From Ignavibacteria bacterium RIFOXYC2_FULL_35_21 (GTDB lineage: Bacteria; Bacteroidota; Ignavibacteria; Kapaibacteriales; UBA2268), in assembly GCA_001804705.1 (NCBI GenBank), contig MHAY01000091.1:1-64000 (forward strand): 64,000 bases of DNA, read 5' to 3'. A program made the position numbers and the translations under genes. Each line of letters begins with the position of its first letter. The first letter of the stretch is position 1. This document shows positions 48,742-63,047 of the stretch, in pieces. The notes beneath the pieces were generated by a model. That model did not search any database. It was not told the origin of the DNA and saw only the letters and a list, made by a program, of their open reading frames with translations.

Positions 48742-49809
48742 TCAGAAACTTATCAGAGCCTTTGGCAGAAGCATCCTTATTTTTTCCTTTTCAGCATCAG
48801 AAAAGTAATTTTGATTTATATAAAGCTTTTTTAAATTTTTCAACTTTGCAATTGTTTCCGGAAGGCTCGATAGTTCATTCCTCGTGAAATCAATTCCTTC
48901 AAGCATGTTCAAATCACCTATTGTCGGAGGTATTATTTTAAGTTTATTGAATGGTGCGGTCAGAATATGCAGGCTGTCCAATCCGCCAATGCTTTCGGGC
49001 AAAGTAACCAAATCGCAATTATATAAACCAAGGTCTCTAAGAAATTTCAATTCACCGATTTTTTCCGGAAAAATCGTAAGGTGATTATAGCTTAAATCAA
49101 GCTTCTCCAGTTTCTTGAGAACAATTATACTATCGGGTATAATTGTTAATTTATTGTAAGACAAATCAAGTACTACAAGGTTAGTCAATTGAAAAATATC
49201 CGGTGGGAACTCAGGTATTTTATTAATATTCAAATACAATTCCCTTAAAGATTTCATCTTATCCAAATTCTTCGGTACAGAAGTAAGTTCGTTTTTATGA
49301 AAATCCAAAACTTTGATGTTTGGCAAATCGCAAATTGACTCAGGAAGATTAGTAATAACATTGTGGAAAGCATAAAACCTCTGAAGATTTTTCAATTCAC
49401 CAAAGTTTGCAGGTAATGACTTCAATTTATTTCTATATATAAAAACCTCTTTTAAATTAGTTAATTCAACAAAACTGTTGGGTAAAGAAGTCAATTGATT
49501 ATTATAGATGTATAAAACTTCAAGATTCTTGAGTTCACCGAAATTAGCAGGTAATACCTTTAACTCATTATGACTGAGGTCAAGCCTTTTTAGATTTTTG
49601 AAGCTTGTTATTGTTGGAGGCAATGATTTCAGCCTGCCTTTCGACAAATTCAAAAATTCTACCTGCAAAGGTTCTTGTAAGGCTGTAGCGAGGTCTTTGT
49701 ATTCTTTCAATGATTTATCAGTTTCAATTCTCGGTGAAAGTTCCTGAGCTTGAATTGATGATAATACGAAATAAAAAACCAAAGCTATATTAGTCAACTT
49801 AAATATCAT
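48742..49809 (-). CDS. Secreted leucine-rich repeat protein 1
   Basis: A 355-residue protein from ATG 49809, chosen for AGGGGG 11 bases upstream and a signal peptide (MIFKLTNIALVFYFVLSSIQ, cleavage near residue 22). It then has about eleven 23-residue repeats of the form L-x-x-L-x-L-x-x-N-x-L-x-x-L-P, for example LKRLDLSHNELKVLPANFGE. It ends with an amphipathic stretch EKIRMLLPKALISF. It is a solenoid binding protein of the periplasm or cell surface. It lies in tandem with two paralogues; no T9SS tail is seen. Confidence 0.88.
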   Translation of the reverse strand: MIFKLTNIALVFYFVLSSIQAQELSPRIETDKSLKEYKDLATALQEPLQVEFLNLSKGRLKSLPPTITSFKNLKRLDLSHNELKVLPANFGELKNLEVLYIYNNQLTSLPNSFVELTNLKEVFIYRNKLKSLPANFGELKNLQRFYAFHNVITNLPESICDLPNIKVLDFHKNELTSVPKNLDKMKSLRELYLNINKIPEFPPDIFQLTNLVVLDLSYNKLTIIPDSIIVLKKLEKLDLSYNHLTIFPEKIGELKFLRDLGLYNCDLVTLPESIGGLDSLHILTAPFNKLKIIPPTIGDLNMLEGIDFTRNELSSLPETIAKLKNLKKLYINQNYFSDAEKEKIRMLLPKALISF

Positions 49810-50030
49810 TTTCGATTTCCCCCTGATGCTGTTTATCATACTATCCTGTATAAATGCTTAATCCTAAAACAATACATGAAAATAATTCAAAATAAAGATT
49901 TTTCCAAATTTTACTCTTATTTTTTATTATATATACCAATTGAAAATAATTAATTATTAATATATTATCAATAATCGTGCCTTATGAATAAAATTAATAA
50001 TTGATAGTATTTAGTGAGGAAATTGTGTCC

Positions 50031-51173
50031 TTACCAGCTAATTTTAACTTTAGGTATAAGTTTGGTAATCCTTATTTTTTCGGACATAGAGAATGGATTC
50101 GAACTCAGAAACATTTTTTTTAGATTTATGCAGCCGGCCAGTGTTTCTGGCAGGGTTGTCAGTTCATTTTTTGACAAGTCAATTCCTTCAAGTATTTTAA
50201 GATTACCTATAGAAGCAGGTATTGACTTGATTTTATTAAATGGAGCAACTAATGTGCTTAGGCTGTCCAATCCGCCGATGCTTTCAGGCAATGTCTCAAG
50301 ATTGCAGTTGTACATTACCAATTCCCTAAGCTTTTTAAGATTTCCAATCCTATCGGGGAGTTTTGTTATATGATTATAGCTAATGTCCAATTTCTCGAGA
50401 CTATTTAGCTTATCAATACTATCAGGCAAAACTAATATTTGATTATAAGATAAATCGAGAACCCTGAGTTTATTAAATACCTGAACCTCATATTCAAAGG
50501 TGGTAAGTTTATTAACATGTAAAAACAATTCTTCAAGATTTACCAAATGGTCAAGCCTGTTGGGAAGACTGCTAAGATTATTATTGTGAAAATCCAGTAC
50601 CTTGAGTTTAACAAGTTCACACACACTTTCGGGTATTTTCGAAATCTTATTGTTAAACACATATAGCTTCTGCAAAGAAGTTATTTCACCAATCCTTTCA
50701 GGAATTTCAGTCAATTTGTTATTATATGCAAACAAATTTCTAAGCTTTTTAAGTTTTACAACACAATCCGGTATCCTTTTTATCTGATTATTATTGATAT
50801 ATAATTCTTCCAGATTTTCGAGCTGTGATAAATTTTCAGGTATTTGATTAATTTGATTGTGCCCTAAATCAAGTGACTTCAGAGTCTTAACGTCCAGAAT
50901 CAGCACTGGTATTTCAGTTAGTTTGTTATAGCTTATATCAATTTTTTCAAGGTATTTGAAATCCCTTACACTGACGGGAAAAGTTTTTAAGTTTTGATTG
51001 GATAATTTCAGGACTTTAACATCTAAAGGATTTTTTATAGCATCTTCAACTTTGAAATAAACACCCGGCTGTACCGAGTCCTTTGACCTAACCTCCTGGC
51101 ACAAAGCAGTATCATTAGTATATAATACTAAATATGCAGAAATTATGATAACAATGAAAACTTTAGTACTCAT
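50031..51173 (-). CDS. Secreted leucine-rich repeat protein 2
   Basis: A 380-residue paralogue of the flanking genes. The signal peptide MSTKVFIVIIISAYLVLYTN is followed by a short linker (VRSKDSVQPGVYFKVEDAIK) and about twelve 23-residue repeats such as LKSLDLGHNQINQIPENLSQ. The C-terminus EKIRITKLIPKVKISW matches those of the other two proteins. The segment ESIGGLDSLSTLVAPFNKIK is nearly the same as in paralogue 1, marking a recent common origin. TAAATTTG about 60 bases upstream on the minus strand could be its -7 element. Confidence 0.88.
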   Translation of the reverse strand: MSTKVFIVIIISAYLVLYTNDTALCQEVRSKDSVQPGVYFKVEDAIKNPLDVKVLKLSNQNLKTFPVSVRDFKYLEKIDISYNKLTEIPVLILDVKTLKSLDLGHNQINQIPENLSQLENLEELYINNNQIKRIPDCVVKLKKLRNLFAYNNKLTEIPERIGEITSLQKLYVFNNKISKIPESVCELVKLKVLDFHNNNLSSLPNRLDHLVNLEELFLHVNKLTTFEYEVQVFNKLRVLDLSYNQILVLPDSIDKLNSLEKLDISYNHITKLPDRIGNLKKLRELVMYNCNLETLPESIGGLDSLSTLVAPFNKIKSIPASIGNLKILEGIDLSKNELTTLPETLAGCINLKKMFLSSNPFSMSEKIRITKLIPKVKISW

Positions 51174-51335: not shown

Positions 51336-52346
51336 TCACCAGAAAATTTGAGTTTTAGGTAATGTACTCTTTATTTTATTTTTTTCCGAATTTTCGAAAT
51401 TGTTCATCGTGAGAGTAATAAATTTTAAATTAATTAGATTACTCATAGTCTCAGGCAGGCTTTTTATATCACTCATAGATAAATCAAGGATTTTTAATCC
51501 GGTTAGTTTACCGATGCTTTCAGGCAGTTTGCCAATCCTGTTATATCCGATATTAAGACTTTCCAGATTAATCAGGTCCCCAATATCCTGAGGAAAATTT
51601 GTAATGTTGCAGTTATATAAAGCAAGTTCTTTCAGGTATTTCAAACCCGATAAACTCGATGGGAAGGACATCATGGTATTATAGCACATATCAAGTTTCT
51701 CAAGGTTAGTTAAATTATTTATTTTTTCCGAAAGGGTATTTATATCATTATAAGATAAATCCAGAATTTTGAGACTGCTTATATTATAAATTCCATTAGG
51801 TATTTTTTTAATTTTATTAATATTAAGATACAGTTCTTCTAATTTTGATAAATTTTGAATTTCCGGCGGAATCTCTTCAAATTGGTTTTTATAAGCTGCC
51901 AATGTATTTAATTCATGTAGATTTCCAATTGAAGCCGGTAAATGCTTAATCTTGTTTCTGAAAATATATAATTTACTTAATTTGCTTAATTGACCTATTT
52001 TCTCAGGTAAAGATACCAATTCATTATTGCTGGCATCAAATCTTTCGAGATTAGTCAATTCGCAGATTTCATCAGGTAAAACAGTTAATTTATTGTAACT
52101 CAGGTTAAGGTATCTTAAATTCTTTAGTTCTTTGATTGAAGCGGGCAGGATTTTTAGATTTTGTTTTGATAAGTCAAGTGAATAAACATTATCAGGATTT
52201 TTTATTGCTTCTTGTAGATTTTTATAAACATTAACCCCATTGAGCAAATCAAAAGGCTTGACATTTTCCATAGCAAAAGATGAGAGTCCTGAAATAATCA
52301 GAATGAAAGCTAATGAAATTTTTGAAAATAAAGTTAACATAAACAA
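51336..52346 (-). CDS. Secreted leucine-rich repeat protein 3
   Basis: The third, most diverged paralogue, 336 residues. The signal peptide MFMLTLFSKISLAFILIISG is followed by about eleven LRR units (LRYLNLSYNKLTVLPDEICE, LSKLYIFRNKIKHLPASIGN and so on), and it ends EKNKIKSTLPKTQIFW, like the others. It was probably produced by tandem duplication. No catalytic domain is present. It probably recognises a polysaccharide or protein ligand outside the cell; this is inferred from the fold. Confidence 0.87.
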   Translation of the reverse strand: MFMLTLFSKISLAFILIISGLSSFAMENVKPFDLLNGVNVYKNLQEAIKNPDNVYSLDLSKQNLKILPASIKELKNLRYLNLSYNKLTVLPDEICELTNLERFDASNNELVSLPEKIGQLSKLSKLYIFRNKIKHLPASIGNLHELNTLAAYKNQFEEIPPEIQNLSKLEELYLNINKIKKIPNGIYNISSLKILDLSYNDINTLSEKINNLTNLEKLDMCYNTMMSFPSSLSGLKYLKELALYNCNITNFPQDIGDLINLESLNIGYNRIGKLPESIGKLTGLKILDLSMSDIKSLPETMSNLINLKFITLTMNNFENSEKNKIKSTLPKTQIFW

Positions 52347-53719: not shown

Positions 53720-54985
53720 TTATAATTTAATGATTTTAAAGTAAGAAGATGTTGAATTTAATATTAATTGGACATAATAAAAACCAGCATTAAGATGTTT
53801 AATGTCTAACCCAATTGAACCACCATATTGCAATGATTGATTAAAGTCTTTTTCTAAAATTTTGTTCCCCAATAAATCAAATAATAATACTTTTAATTTG
53901 GGATAATTTAAATCCTTATTTATTCTGATATTCAAAATATCTTTCACAGGGTTTGGGTATAAAAATATACTTTGATTGTTGTCGTTGTCATCTACTCCTG
54001 TATAGTCAGGAGGCGGTGTATCAGTTAATTTATCCAATTGCCTCAAAGAAACATATTCAATAAATTCAAGCCTTTTTGCCGCACGATAACAGCTATCAAC
54101 ATTAGCCGGAATTTGGGCATAGTCAACTGTGAAAATAGGTTTGCCTGCATTTTGGAAATAGCTTAGGTTAGTTATATATTCAAGTGTTAACCCTGCATCC
54201 TCAGGTATATCCCCCAATTGTCCCAGAGGGTCGGCATCACCATCGAACCAGATATTCTCCTGTGCTACGGCATCAATAATATTAAAGTATTTTTGAGATA
54301 AGCTGTCCGGTTCCCAATTCTCATTATATATAATTGCAGTAGCATTTTGAGGTATAACTAAAAAACCCGGCTTTTTTGTTCTGCAATATTGAGCGATTTC
54401 TTCAATAAACTTAATCATTTCATTTCTTGAGTTCAGCCCATCTGCTGATGCTACATTCATAACAGGTTCAAATTCGAAAGCTTCTACCCAATCAAGATAA
54501 ATACCATCATAACCGTCAGCCAGTATCATATCAATCATAGAAGTATCGGAACCGAACATTAAGTTTTTCCATTCCTGCCTCCAATACTTGACGGGAAAAT
54601 TGCCATCCCACCCATCCGGGTCATTAGCGACAATCCAATCAGGATTACCAACTCTCCAATCCTGCTTCCAGTAATAACGGTAATCTTCTACCTCTCCTAT
54701 GTCAATATAGCAGACAACGATTTTATTTTCACCATTCCAGCCTTTGCTGTTTTTAAGTTGGGTGATGTCCGCTGCATTGTCATAATTTTCCTTCCCGACA
54801 ACAGTTCTCGGATTATCAATTACAATAAGCTCGTATTTTGAATCTACAAGATTTTGTATGCTGTTGTTTTCATCCTGTGATTGAATCTGATATGCCCAAA
54901 ACTTTACTTTGTTTAGTGATTGACAAAAGATGTTTGAATTGAAAAGAAATATCATACCCAAAGCATAAAGTAGTAACTTTTTCAT
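53720..54985 (-). CDS. GH114-family glycosidase with T9SS sorting domain
   Basis: A 421-residue secreted enzyme. The signal peptide MKKLLLYALGMIFLFNSNIFC is supported by GGAG eight bases before ATG 54985. Residues about 25-320 match the endo-alpha-1,4-polygalactosaminidase/GH114 (TM1410-like) barrel: VVCYIDIGEVEDYRYYW, FPVKYWRQEWKNLMF, DGIYLDWVEAFE, and QNATAIIYN. The probable catalytic Asp residues are in the first and third. The C-terminus IFLYPNPVKDILNIRI through YFKIIKL is a type A sorting domain. A role in cutting galactosamine-containing exopolysaccharide is inferred. Confidence 0.83.
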   Translation of the reverse strand: MKKLLLYALGMIFLFNSNIFCQSLNKVKFWAYQIQSQDENNSIQNLVDSKYELIVIDNPRTVVGKENYDNAADITQLKNSKGWNGENKIVVCYIDIGEVEDYRYYWKQDWRVGNPDWIVANDPDGWDGNFPVKYWRQEWKNLMFGSDTSMIDMILADGYDGIYLDWVEAFEFEPVMNVASADGLNSRNEMIKFIEEIAQYCRTKKPGFLVIPQNATAIIYNENWEPDSLSQKYFNIIDAVAQENIWFDGDADPLGQLGDIPEDAGLTLEYITNLSYFQNAGKPIFTVDYAQIPANVDSCYRAAKRLEFIEYVSLRQLDKLTDTPPPDYTGVDDNDNNQSIFLYPNPVKDILNIRINKDLNYPKLKVLLFDLLGNKILEKDFNQSLQYGGSIGLDIKHLNAGFYYVQLILNSTSSYFKIIKL

Positions 54986-55132
54986 AAATTCTCCGTCAAT
55001 TATAATAATAAGATTTATTTTTAAAATACAATTTCTATTTAAAAGTTTTGAAATCAAAGAGAAAATTACAAAATTTCAAGTAATTGTAAAATATAATGAA
55101 ACTTCTGAAAAAATGAAATATTATGATAGATT

Positions 55133-58731: not shown

Positions 58732-58763
58732 AAAACCATTTTAAAAAATTTTAAAATGGTTTT
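58732..58763. terminator. Bidirectional AT-rich terminator of caspase operon
   Basis: AAAACCATTTTAA (58732-58744) and TTAAAATGGTTTT (58751-58763) are perfectly complementary, with A-tracts and T-tracts at both ends. It lies 39 bases past the stop of the caspase-like gene. Confidence 0.7.
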
Positions 58764-58801
58764 AAAAATAAAATAATTTCCTTATCAACTATGATATTTT
58801 T

Positions 58802-61528
58802 TTATTTTAATTTAAATGACCTCCAAAAAAATGGTTTCAATGGGATACTGGCATCTGTAGAGGGATTCTGTTCCATATAATGCAATTTATTCGCTTGTAG
58901 AGATACATTTTCTTTTATATAATCCGAAAGTTCACCATAATTAATATCACCTTTTGAATCCTTAATCTTTTTAAGCAAGTAATAAGTAAATAAACCGTGT
59001 TGTTTATCATCATAAGGTAATGCTTTTTGAGAACCACTTACTGCATTAAATACTATTATATTACCAAATAATGTATTTGGCTTGGGTTGTACTCTCACAC
59101 CTCTTGAAGCAATTAAACCTTTACTAAAACAAGCGTCAATAAATGCAGTAACTCTTATTGGCGAGTTCTCTGTTAGATCCTTATATAATTGAGATAATTG
59201 AATGCCATCATAAATATTAGCTTCACTTACATCAATTGGCAAAATGTAACTCTCATTATTATTTGTAAAATCAGGTGCACCATGACCTACATAATAAAAT
59301 AATAATTTTACTTCTTCATCTTGTTTATACAATGGAATATTTGAAAAATTTCTAATTTCTTGCTTCATCTTAGTACTAATTTCATTTCTTAATAAACTTA
59401 TATTTTCTACCGGAATACCTAATGTATTAATACAATATTTTCGAAATAGTTCAGCATCTTTAATAGCATATGTTACGTTATCTTCGGTGCTTAAATTTTT
59501 TTGATGGATGGTATAATCTTCATTACCTATTATGAGTGCATAAGTATTCGTTTGCTTAATGTTTGTTAAAGGAATCTCAGTATCAATATCTGATTCTTTT
59601 GGTGTTTCTGGGTAAGGTATAAGAGTAGGACCTACTGTAACAGATTCACTAGGTTTTATATTTAATGAGCTAACATCCCAAATATTCAAAAAGTCATCAA
59701 ACTCAGCTGCTAAATATTTACCATTAGGGCTGAACCTAATTTTTTTAATATTTCCATCCCCTTTAAAAGAAATAATTTTTTTATTATTTGTCAAGTTAAA
59801 AATGATAATTTCATTACCGCGTACCTTAACACGTCCGTCTAAAGAAGAGATAACAAGATATTTACCATCAGGGCTTATATCAATTGAAGTATTATTTTCA
59901 TATTCAGTTTTAATAACATTAACTATTTGTTGATTTGATATTCTCCATAAATTAATCTCATTTGAATAATTTGAACTGTTTATAATGAAATTACCATCTG
60001 GAGTAAACTTTACATCGCTCGGATAATTAGATGATTTAAATGTTCTATAAACGTTTAAATTAGGTAAATCAAGTAATTTTATATCTTTATCACAAGCCAA
60101 TACGATATGATTTGTTACTGAATTTATATCAATATTATAAACACTACTTTTAATATTACTATTAATTAATTGTCCATTTTCAATATCCTTAATGTAAAAT
60201 CCATTCTTAAAACCAACATTTATATATTTCCCATTATTTGAACATGAAATGACATTTATTTTATCCCACCATGATTCAAAACTAATAATTTGGTTTATGA
60301 AAGAAGCTTTATTAGCATCCCATCTATTTAAAATATGTCGTTTGGTTGCACTATAAATAGATTTACCATCAGAACTAAAACATACAGCTATTGGACTATA
60401 AGTAGTTTCAAAAAGTGTATATAATATTTCACCATTTGTTATATTCCACAACTTAATAGTTTTATCTTCTGAACTAGTAACAATATATTTACTATCTGGG
60501 CTAATATCAAAAGAGGTCAATTCGGGTTGATTTAATATTCTTGGATTTTGAAATATATTCACATTTATATTATTATCATCATCAGTTTTGTTTTTATTTT
60601 TTTCAGATATTTGCTCATCTTTTTCTTTAAAAAGTTGCCCATAAGCCCCATATTTACCATCTTTATAGTAATATTTAAATTGGATTGCAGACCATCTTTC
60701 ATTTGTTAAAATAATTTTTCCGTTATTCAAACATTTATCTTTACCATATTCAATTAATTCTTCTAATTCTGCTGACACATCAGATTGTTTAATTAATTTT
60801 AAATTACCACCACAGCGCAAGGTGGGATATGATATTGTTATTTGTTTTTCATTTATAATTTTTATTTCAATATCCCATTTACTATTATTATTGATTTGGG
60901 TTCCTGTACCTTTCCAAGTTCCACTATTATTTTCAATGAAATTAGCAGATGAAGATTTCCCAACTTTTGTAGGAGTGTTTTGATTTGTTGTGTTAACCAT
61001 AGTATTATTTAATTTTTGAGCATATATACTATTAACTTCGCAAATAGTTCTTTTATTTCCCATACTTTCCGAAATGTATCTTGGTTTACCATAATCAGAA
61101 CGTATATATTTCAAATTATTATCAACTACATTGAGCCAATCTATTTCATCGCCAGTTTTTACAATACCATCCCCATAAAAAATTAATTTAAATAAAATGG
61201 AAAATATTATTGATCCAGACATTCCAACTATCGAAGAAACTATAGGGGAGTTTTCCATCTGACCCTGGTCATTTTGCATTTTATACCACGGATTAAAATA
61301 ACTATAAGTTCCAATAGCTACTGTCATTCCTCCAAACAGTAGCCAACCAGTACCATTTAAATTATTTTCATATTTTGGATTTTTAAATTCTATACTATCA
61401 TTTTTTTCATATTTAGTATCATATAAAGGTTTATAAGTATAACAAGATAAAAAATTAAATAATAAGAAAATCAATATAAAATATGAAATATTTTTTATGA
61501 TTATATTGTTTGTAATAATCTTAAACAT
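58802..61528 (-). CDS. Lipoprotein with beta-propeller and caspase-like (C14) protease domains
   Basis: A 908-residue lipoprotein with lipobox LSC at Cys29. Two hydrophobic stretches follow (LLFGGMTVAIGTYSYF, IVSSIVGMSGSIIFSILFKL). A domain at about 205-305 has W-x-G...YPTLRCGGNLKL, a pattern known from several bacterial multidomain sensors. WD40-like blades occupy about 335-625 (FDISPDSKYIVTSSEDKTIK). The C-terminal caspase domain (about 650-900) has His749 in YYVGHGA and Cys800 in FIDACFSKG, so the catalytic dyad is intact. It is the last gene after LPP20 and DUF4384 proteins. Probably a surface or periplasmic protease switched by the propeller. Confidence 0.85.
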   Translation of the reverse strand: MFKIITNNIIIKNISYFILIFLLFNFLSCYTYKPLYDTKYEKNDSIEFKNPKYENNLNGTGWLLFGGMTVAIGTYSYFNPWYKMQNDQGQMENSPIVSSIVGMSGSIIFSILFKLIFYGDGIVKTGDEIDWLNVVDNNLKYIRSDYGKPRYISESMGNKRTICEVNSIYAQKLNNTMVNTTNQNTPTKVGKSSSANFIENNSGTWKGTGTQINNNSKWDIEIKIINEKQITISYPTLRCGGNLKLIKQSDVSAELEELIEYGKDKCLNNGKIILTNERWSAIQFKYYYKDGKYGAYGQLFKEKDEQISEKNKNKTDDDNNINVNIFQNPRILNQPELTSFDISPDSKYIVTSSEDKTIKLWNITNGEILYTLFETTYSPIAVCFSSDGKSIYSATKRHILNRWDANKASFINQIISFESWWDKINVISCSNNGKYINVGFKNGFYIKDIENGQLINSNIKSSVYNIDINSVTNHIVLACDKDIKLLDLPNLNVYRTFKSSNYPSDVKFTPDGNFIINSSNYSNEINLWRISNQQIVNVIKTEYENNTSIDISPDGKYLVISSLDGRVKVRGNEIIIFNLTNNKKIISFKGDGNIKKIRFSPNGKYLAAEFDDFLNIWDVSSLNIKPSESVTVGPTLIPYPETPKESDIDTEIPLTNIKQTNTYALIIGNEDYTIHQKNLSTEDNVTYAIKDAELFRKYCINTLGIPVENISLLRNEISTKMKQEIRNFSNIPLYKQDEEVKLLFYYVGHGAPDFTNNNESYILPIDVSEANIYDGIQLSQLYKDLTENSPIRVTAFIDACFSKGLIASRGVRVQPKPNTLFGNIIVFNAVSGSQKALPYDDKQHGLFTYYLLKKIKDSKGDINYGELSDYIKENVSLQANKLHYMEQNPSTDASIPLKPFFWRSFKLK

Positions 61529-61535
61529 AATGATT

Positions 61536-62369
61536 CTATTTCTTTATTATAAATTGAAAATATTTTACTTCTCTTTGATCTGGTGGAATTGAATAGATCC
61601 ATTTTAATATATTTTTTATATTAACATTTTCAATAAATGGTAAATATTGTTTAGTAAACACAATCACAATATAATTATTTTCATCTTCAGAAAGTACTTC
61701 TAAAGTATATCCTGTTTCATTTCTATTATTACCAATAAATTCCTTAACTGGGAAATTACATAATTGATTTTTTTTGAATAAATGTTCTTCTTCATCATTT
61801 AAAAATGTATCAATTTTATTTTGGAATGGATAAAGTAATATGCAATTTGAATCATTAAAATTAAAAATTTTTAGATAGCCATTTTGGGATGGTTCAATTG
61901 AAAAATTCAGAACGTCTCCATCTTGATATATCTTTTTAATTCCATCTACCTTAAAATTAAAAGAAGGGTCTTTTTTTGTATTATATTTGATAACTTTTGC
62001 ATCTATTTCAACTTCACAAATCCAATTATCATTTTTGTCAATATATTTAACTTCATTTACTACATCATAATCGAATATCGCTCCATTTATTTCAACAGTT
62101 GATATTTCATTAAAAATTTGATAAAAATTTTGGTCATCTTGATTGGTAATTAAAATACCTGATACCGAAATTTGCTCGGTTATTTTGGCTTTTCTTAGAG
62201 CTTCTTTTTCTGCTTCAATTATAGCTCTAGACTTAGCTTCTTCAGGTGATATGTTCTTTATCTCACAGAAACCTTTAACATTTTTTACTTCAATTATTTC
62301 TTTACATGGAATTTTAATAGAAGTAATCATAAAGAATAATAAAGAAATGATTATTCTTAATCTTACCAT
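61536..62369 (-). CDS. DUF4384 secreted protein
   Basis: A 277-residue protein with a signal peptide (about residues 1-22). Residues about 35-130 resemble LPP20-like beta-alpha domains (EEAKSRAIIEAEKEALRKAK). Residues about 140-260 fit DUF4384: FKVDGIKKIYQDGDVLNFSI followed by GYLKIFNFNDSNCILLYPF and QREVKYFQFII. DUF4384 domains are commonly fused or adjacent to caspase-like proteases in bacteria. Here it sits seven bases before the caspase gene, which supports a shared function, perhaps as substrate or regulator. Confidence 0.72.
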   Translation of the reverse strand: MVRLRIIISLLFFMITSIKIPCKEIIEVKNVKGFCEIKNISPEEAKSRAIIEAEKEALRKAKITEQISVSGILITNQDDQNFYQIFNEISTVEINGAIFDYDVVNEVKYIDKNDNWICEVEIDAKVIKYNTKKDPSFNFKVDGIKKIYQDGDVLNFSIEPSQNGYLKIFNFNDSNCILLYPFQNKIDTFLNDEEEHLFKKNQLCNFPVKEFIGNNRNETGYTLEVLSEDENNYIVIVFTKQYLPFIENVNIKNILKWIYSIPPDQREVKYFQFIIKK

Positions 62370-62387
62370 AAGAATACCTTTGAAAAT

Positions 62388-62954
62388 CTATTTTTCTAAT
62401 TTTTTTAATTCTTCATTAAATATTTTTTCAAATTGATTCATATCATAATCAATCCTAAGTCTTTGATTATTAGATATCTTATTATTGATTCCACTAAGTA
62501 TTGTATCTTTTGCAACCTCGATTGCAATCCAATATGTGTAGCTGCCATCTTTTTCTTTATATGTTTTTTCGCCAATTGTTTTAATGTCGACTAATTCTTG
62601 TTCAATGACCTCTCTTGATAACTCTTCAAATTTATTTTCATATTCTTGTTTATTGGCAATAGACCTTTGATTAGTATATTGATTATTCACTACTTTAATC
62701 AATGTGTTTATTTTCCCAGCTAATTCAGCTTTTGAATTTTGTAAAGCAATTTTTTTTGCAGTTGCAAGATCCGGACTTTTTCCAGAATGATGTGCTCTGA
62801 AATATTTTTCATCACTTTGATAAATCTTATCATTGAAAGGATTTTCAAACTCAATTGCTCCAGTAGTACCAGTATATGTTTTTGTTGAAGAGCAGGAATA
62901 AAATAAAAGTAATGAAAGTATAATAAGAGAACCGTTTAAATATTTGTTCTTCAT
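62388..62954 (-). CDS. LPP20-family lipoprotein
   Basis: A 188-residue lipoprotein: MKNKYLNGSLIILSLLLFYS with lipobox Cys21, then the LPP20 pattern ATAKKIALQNSKAELAGKIN and a terminal helix. LPP20 proteins are outer-membrane lipoproteins; the alpha-beta domain occurs in many Bacteroidota surface proteins. It is the first gene of the operon with the DUF4384 and caspase genes (18-base gap), and a promoter-like site lies about 63 bases upstream. The role is inferred to be anchoring or assembly of the unit. Confidence 0.75.
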   Translation of the reverse strand: MKNKYLNGSLIILSLLLFYSCSSTKTYTGTTGAIEFENPFNDKIYQSDEKYFRAHHSGKSPDLATAKKIALQNSKAELAGKINTLIKVVNNQYTNQRSIANKQEYENKFEELSREVIEQELVDIKTIGEKTYKEKDGSYTYWIAIEVAKDTILSGINNKISNNQRLRIDYDMNQFEKIFNEELKKLEK

Positions 62955-63016
62955 AAATCACCTTATTAAATTAATACAATTTTAAATTATTAATACCTAA
63001 TAGATGTTATATGTAT

Positions 63017-63047
63017 CAAAAATATTACTATATTTCCAAAAAAGCAA
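63017..63047 (-). promoter_or_regulatory. Bacteroidota-type promoter of LPP20-DUF4384-caspase operon
   Basis: On the minus strand TTG (63045-63047), 20 bases, then TATTTTTG (63017-63024), matching TTG-N20-TAnnTTTG. The leader to the LPP20 ATG would be about 57 bases. Confidence 0.45.

Follow-up and report, generated by a model that had tools for sequence, protein, structure and literature searches.

Most discussion of bacterial caspase homologues concerns a role in the cytoplasm, in cell death or in defence against phages. Here we describe a three-gene operon of Ignavibacteria bacterium RIFOXYC2_FULL_35_21 (contig MHAY01000091.1, analysed over its first 64,000 nucleotides, hereafter the window), in which gene 3 encodes a membrane-anchored caspase homologue with a WD40 propeller, gene 1 an LPP20-superfamily lipoprotein and gene 2 an exported DUF4384 protein. 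We would put it at slightly short of an even chance that the operon encodes an envelope-anchored, partner-regulated protease module of the caspase family, which processes an exported protein or feeds a signal. A recurrent exported form of caspase, tied to particular envelope partners, to a membrane cyclase sensor and to a specific cargo of the type IX secretion system (T9SS), would put these enzymes to a different use, in surface-protein processing or envelope signalling, and would narrow the candidate substrates and partners to a short list open to genetic tests.

The nearest described counterparts of gene 3 are the prokaryotic metacaspases and orthocaspases (C14, PF00656), with which it shares a p20-type domain, a His-Cys dyad, an aspartate before the catalytic cysteine and the fusion to WD40 repeats, found in 10.9% of prokaryotic metacaspases (survey PMC3501461). 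Gene 3 differs from them in that its product is anchored and probably extracytoplasmic, has its propeller on the N-terminal side, contains a YPxLxCGG domain and has LPP20 and DUF4384 partners in its operon. In cyanobacterial orthocaspases (PMC7475262), DUF4384 likewise occurs with a caspase (and WD40), but inside the caspase protein, whereas here it belongs to a separate exported gene with a predicted LPP20/FlgT-like N-terminus. As for the partners, FlgP/FlgT and LPP20-type envelope lipoproteins come closest: gene 1 is placed in the LPP20 superfamily through its homologues, and the N-terminus of gene 2 has a similar predicted fold, but no flagellar context was seen at the operon. PorU and other surface proteases of family C25 offer a further parallel as clan CD cysteine proteases outside the cytoplasm, a location known for PorU and inferred for gene 3, but they belong to another family. 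No description of a linked LPP20/DUF4384/caspase/CHASE2/T9SS module was found in the literature searched.

The three-gene operon is real. Its coding and candidate regulatory elements are listed below; we compared them with those of Bacteroidetes bacterium WY4.bin46, a member of the same genus (hereafter the congener).

62388-62954, minus strand: gene 1, 188 amino acids, LPP20-superfamily lipoprotein with Cys21 (LPP20 assignment through homologues).
61536-62369, minus strand: gene 2, 277 amino acids, exported, with a putative N-terminal LPP20/FlgT-like domain and a C-terminal DUF4384 domain.
58802-61528, minus strand: gene 3, 908 amino acids, membrane-anchored propeller-caspase (Pfam and alignment with the congener).
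63047-63045 (TTG), 20-nt spacer, 63024-63017 (TATTTTTG), minus strand: promoter-like site of the Bacteroidota type, by pattern match.
About 58733-58770, minus strand: A/T-rich inverted repeat 3' of gene 3, predicted to form a hairpin (fold z=-2.6), a possible transcript end.

The genes lie head to tail, with spacers of 18 base pairs (bp) between genes 1 and 2 and 7 bp between genes 2 and 3, and contig JAKAKE010000045.1 of the congener keeps this gene order, its spacers measuring 17 and 4 bp, so that the tight spacing claimed in an initial annotation of this DNA is borne out. The flanking genes differ in the congener, which argues that the trio forms one unit. Protein identity between the two species is 86% for gene 1, 75% for gene 2 and 56% for gene 3. 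The promoter-like site and terminator of the initial annotation correspond to the pattern match and the hairpin. The position of the former, 62 nt upstream of gene 1, backs it; but the pattern TTG-N20-TATTTTTG occurs six times in the window against 2.4 expected by chance, a weak signal by itself, and the hairpin was not called by a standard terminator scan. A sigma-70 promoter scan was uninformative (41 found, 38 expected).

Five segments can be recognized in the gene 3 protein.

61442-61528, minus strand: predicted signal/anchor segment, residues 1-29, with the lipobox-like FLSC and Cys29 (imperfect lipobox in both species).
61175-61348, minus strand: two further hydrophobic segments, residues 61-118 (about 61-79, weak; 97-118, strong), a possible hairpin, from hydropathy in both species.
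60614-60946, minus strand: YPxLxCGG domain, residues 195-305, predicted to be all-beta, with conserved Cys239 and Cys266.
59666-60526, minus strand: WD40 beta-propeller, residues about 335-621, about seven blades (PF00400, many propeller models, PDB 2ymu).
58829-59542, minus strand: Peptidase_C14 (caspase) domain, residues 663-900, with the H749/C800 dyad and D798 (PF00656).

Both the succession of YPxLxCGG, WD40 and caspase domains and the intact dyad had been noted before, and both hold. For residues 663-900, PF00656 gives a score of 63 bits (cut-off 21.4 bits; E=3e-17), and the WD40 match reaches E=6e-23, with PF00400 at 80.7 bits, above its cut-off; the propeller is presumably closed. The caspase domain taken alone had no meaningful sequence match in the PDB. 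Although the N-terminal 200 residues diverge between the two species, the YPxLxCGG domain is 85% and the caspase domain 69% identical, and H749 (in YYVGHGAPD), C800 (in FIDACFSK) and D798, two residues before C800, are all invariant. We take D798 to occupy the position where metacaspases that cut after Arg or Lys have an acidic pocket residue, and from the D798-x-C800 motif we infer that the gene 3 caspase would be specific for a basic residue (Arg/Lys) at P1.

The main structural uncertainty of gene 3 is its topology. The initial annotation had the domains right but overlooked the two extra hydrophobic segments, of which 97-118 is strong in both species, and about 61-79 is strong in the congener alone, being weak here. 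If both or neither of them span the membrane, the caspase would lie outside; if only one does, it would lie inside. The latter case would amount to a receptor-type topology, with the N-terminal part outside and the propeller and caspase in the cytoplasm, serving a stress response or cell death. This arrangement has been proposed for some cyanobacterial orthocaspases (PMC7475262) and would fit the weakness of the first extra segment, but we regard it as unlikely, given that both segments are strong in the congener, that all relatives in the same clade look exported (see below) and that the domain with the cysteine pair otherwise occurs in a lipoprotein. Outside the genus, this YPxLxCGG domain has one match among the 296 Bacteroidota genomes searched, a single-domain lipoprotein of 145 amino acids from a distant genome (L186:1432-1869) in which both cysteines are kept; it has no match in the PDB or in plasmids, and its model is all-beta at low confidence (single-sequence, predicted local distance difference test (pLDDT) 46). 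The conserved pair, Cys239 and Cys266, possibly forms a disulfide and suits an oxidising compartment. We regard the gene 3 caspase as probably extracytoplasmic, and the envelope location proposed earlier remains the best reading.

Evidence on the two small proteins comes largely through their homologues. Gene 1 had no Pfam match at E<=1, LPP20 (PF02169) included. A profile built from two sequences recovered homologues elsewhere in the phylum, in other families, with E-values down to 5e-40, and gene 1 is assigned to LPP20 because several aligned homologues match that family: L154 and L155 pass the PF02169 cut-off and L146 just misses it. Similarly, gene 2 scores 23.4 bits (E=6e-5) against DUF4384 (PF14326), for which the cut-off is 27 bits, and its aligned homologues in L039 and L042 exceed the cut-off with 41-45 bits. 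The N-terminal half of gene 2 is predicted to have a strand-helix-strand-strand order (AlphaFold 2 (AF2) model of moderate confidence, to be trusted only at about residues 23-60 and 96-129), and a fold search of the PDB with this model gave no match at E<=0.001. This domain may be LPP20/FlgT-like, a tentative kinship suggested by the partial model. Two of the three proteins had also been described as lipoproteins. The cysteine is conserved in genes 1 and 3, but the lipoboxes are imperfect: the residues next to the cysteine deviate from [LVI][ASTVI][GAS]C in gene 1 (FYSC) and from the consensus in gene 3 (FLSC in the window, ITDC in the congener).

The caspase relatives give a broader view of where such proteins reside. 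The strongest matches of a caspase-domain search outside the genus, in the same 296 genomes, were in G203, G326, G114 (two), G323 (two), G336 and G308; those of G326, G114 and G308 and one of the two G323 loci had been found independently with gene 2, and the closest relatives beyond the congener mostly adjoin gene 2 homologues. In a tree of 100 caspase domains, the window protein falls into a 14-member clade (support 98/87), and an export signal or lipobox-like segment is seen at the N-terminus of all 14 caspases. Within it, seven of the nine members of a weakly supported subclade (91/69) lie near DUF4384, a count to be read with caution since the tree loci were picked partly via DUF4384 searches. 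Clusters of a WD40-caspase, DUF4384 and a CHASE2 cyclase (L107-L113, L122) resemble the operon in that an exported propeller-caspase adjoins a DUF4384 gene, but differ in the cyclase, absent here, and in their caspases, which lie outside the supported clade of 17 rows (98/96) that encloses the one with the window protein. The propeller-caspases of families f11 and f15 fall outside this clade, so that exported propeller-caspases beside DUF4384 probably arose more than once.

An export signal was also called in 10 of the 12 complete family-level caspases by a crude signal heuristic. Judged by such signals, export is nothing unusual for a caspase of this lineage. The earlier premise that a caspase outside the cytoplasm is uncommon was therefore too strong, the more so as a 2012 survey (PMC3501461) had found that 15% of prokaryotic metacaspases have transmembrane helices, for the most part a lone N-terminal one that may be a signal peptide. 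The window genome itself has a second exported caspase of 598 amino acids (L001:1339-3135, on contig C69 of G000), conserved across the genus (four of four genomes); its C-terminal repeats may be fascin-like by their appearance.

The linkage between caspases and DUF4384 is strong at the level of families. The 296 genomes, searched separately for C14 and DUF4384, have 50 DUF4384 loci, of which at least 27 are no more than 6 kb away from a C14 match, against 0.3 expected under uniform placement; this is a lower bound, as it counts only the C14 matches listed, and at least one genome, G114, whose caspase does match, is missing from them. The statement that the two often occur together in bacteria is supported for Bacteroidota. 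LPP20 joins them at some loci: an LPP20-DUF4384 fusion adjoins a TPR-caspase at L114, and the L040 cluster contains DUF4384 along with a pair of LPP20-like genes and a pair of exported caspases. The co-occurrence of the three families, named as a check in the initial annotation, is found, but the complete trio is not broadly conserved; compared with what was supposed earlier, conservation is better supported for the families and less well for the exact set. As a separate observation, DUF4384 is fused to a papain-type protease (Peptidase_C1) at L116:7083-8486 and L117:7506-8870, where the fusions adjoin exported caspases.

Two kinds of neighbours hint at what these systems may do. CHASE2 sensors occur at 13 exported caspase-DUF4384 loci (L107-L113, L122, L114, L040, L116, L117 and L120); by Pfam, nine of them carry a guanylate cyclase domain, one carries SpoIIE and two are CHASE2-only, and the remaining one was recognized by a local profile. 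A metacaspase-CHASE2 fusion is known from Trichodesmium (PMC2853523, PMC3501461). At seven loci (L039, L040, L042, L117, L124, L177 and L179), an exported caspase adjoins a T9SS cargo protein with a common pre-tail domain of about 250 amino acids and a partner protein of 190 amino acids with a hydrophobic segment at its C-terminus; no description of such a cluster was found in the literature searched. It would be tempting to conclude that the exported caspase trims T9SS cargo, in a role like that of the C25 sortase PorU (PMC4560394, PMC4804311). Besides the adjacency at the seven loci, this idea would fit L041, where cargo occurs with a gene 2 homologue (DUF4384) only, and the carrier genomes, in each of which strong copies of the pre-tail domain number no more than one or two, mostly at caspase-cargo loci. 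However, the adjacency is partly circular, since seven of the eight strong matches of the pre-tail profile are sequences used to build it, and for the window operon no such cargo was found, as set out below; we consider cargo trimming improbable.

We favour instead the following scheme, in which each step is a proposal. The N-terminal signal and the hydrophobic hairpin would hold gene 3 in the membrane, with the beta domain, propeller and protease in the periplasm, and the proteins of genes 1 and 2 would dock to it as a scaffold or regulator in the envelope. A changed partner on the propeller would release the protease, which would then cut an exported partner protein after Arg or Lys, as do metacaspase-type enzymes with an Asp two residues before the Cys. 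The output might be a processed envelope or surface protein, or a signal for a transmembrane sensor; it is proposed because relatives have CHASE2 and T9SS neighbours. More tentatively, the operon may represent a propeller-bearing branch of a widespread and so far undescribed class of extracytoplasmic caspase systems of Bacteroidota, in which exported caspases, LPP20, DUF4384, CHASE2 cyclases or phosphatases and T9SS cargo are combined for modular envelope signalling or surface-protein processing.

Several points weigh against this scheme. In addition to the imperfect lipoboxes and the possibility that only one of the two extra segments spans the membrane, which would turn the caspase cytoplasmic, the exact trio is rare: among 60 relatives besides the window genome it occurs in the congener only, no other relative has genes 1 and 2, and a scan of genome contigs with gene 2 matched only the congener contig, so the complete set is confined to a pair of genomes from one genus. 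No CHASE2-like protein was found in the 64-kb window, the rest of the genome not having been searched for it; neither the window genome nor its congeners yielded a pre-tail domain, and neither the 190-amino-acid family nor a T9SS cargo partner was found beside the operon or in the window. The functions of the relatives cannot, for this reason, simply be transferred, and surface-protein maturation, as suggested in the initial annotation, and signalling have indirect support from the T9SS cargo and CHASE2 neighbours of relatives but none from neighbours in the window. Its absence from the genome makes the pre-tail domain an improbable substrate domain of this operon.

The dyad, moreover, is lost in five members of the 98/87 clade (L168, L171, L172, L173 and L176), lipoproteins of about 570-595 amino acids in family f34 in which GYG replaces GHG or a His motif cannot be made out clearly, and in which DxC is missing, which indicates that the caspase fold can serve without proteolysis. 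Together with the CHASE2 cyclase or phosphatase neighbours and the documented pseudo-orthocaspases (PMC6426788), this would agree with a signalling adaptor, a caspase fold that would bind partners and tune an envelope sensor in place of working as a protease. Yet H749, C800 and D798 have stayed invariant in both species despite 56% protein identity, and we consider the adaptor unlikely, though a live alternative to a protease. Three neighbourhoods of the f34 relatives (L180-L182) lie among central metabolic genes.

An anti-phage or abortive-infection caspase system appears very improbable. A weak match of gene 3 to the generic caspase model of PADLOC (E=7e-8) and the restricted distribution would be in line with it, but no other defence gene was seen beside the operon, and genes 1 and 2 have no PADLOC match and both look exported. 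Elsewhere in the window are a GH114 glycoside hydrolase that carries a T9SS sorting tail (53720-55057) and three consecutive leucine-rich-repeat proteins (48742-49839, 50031-51173 and 51336-52346).

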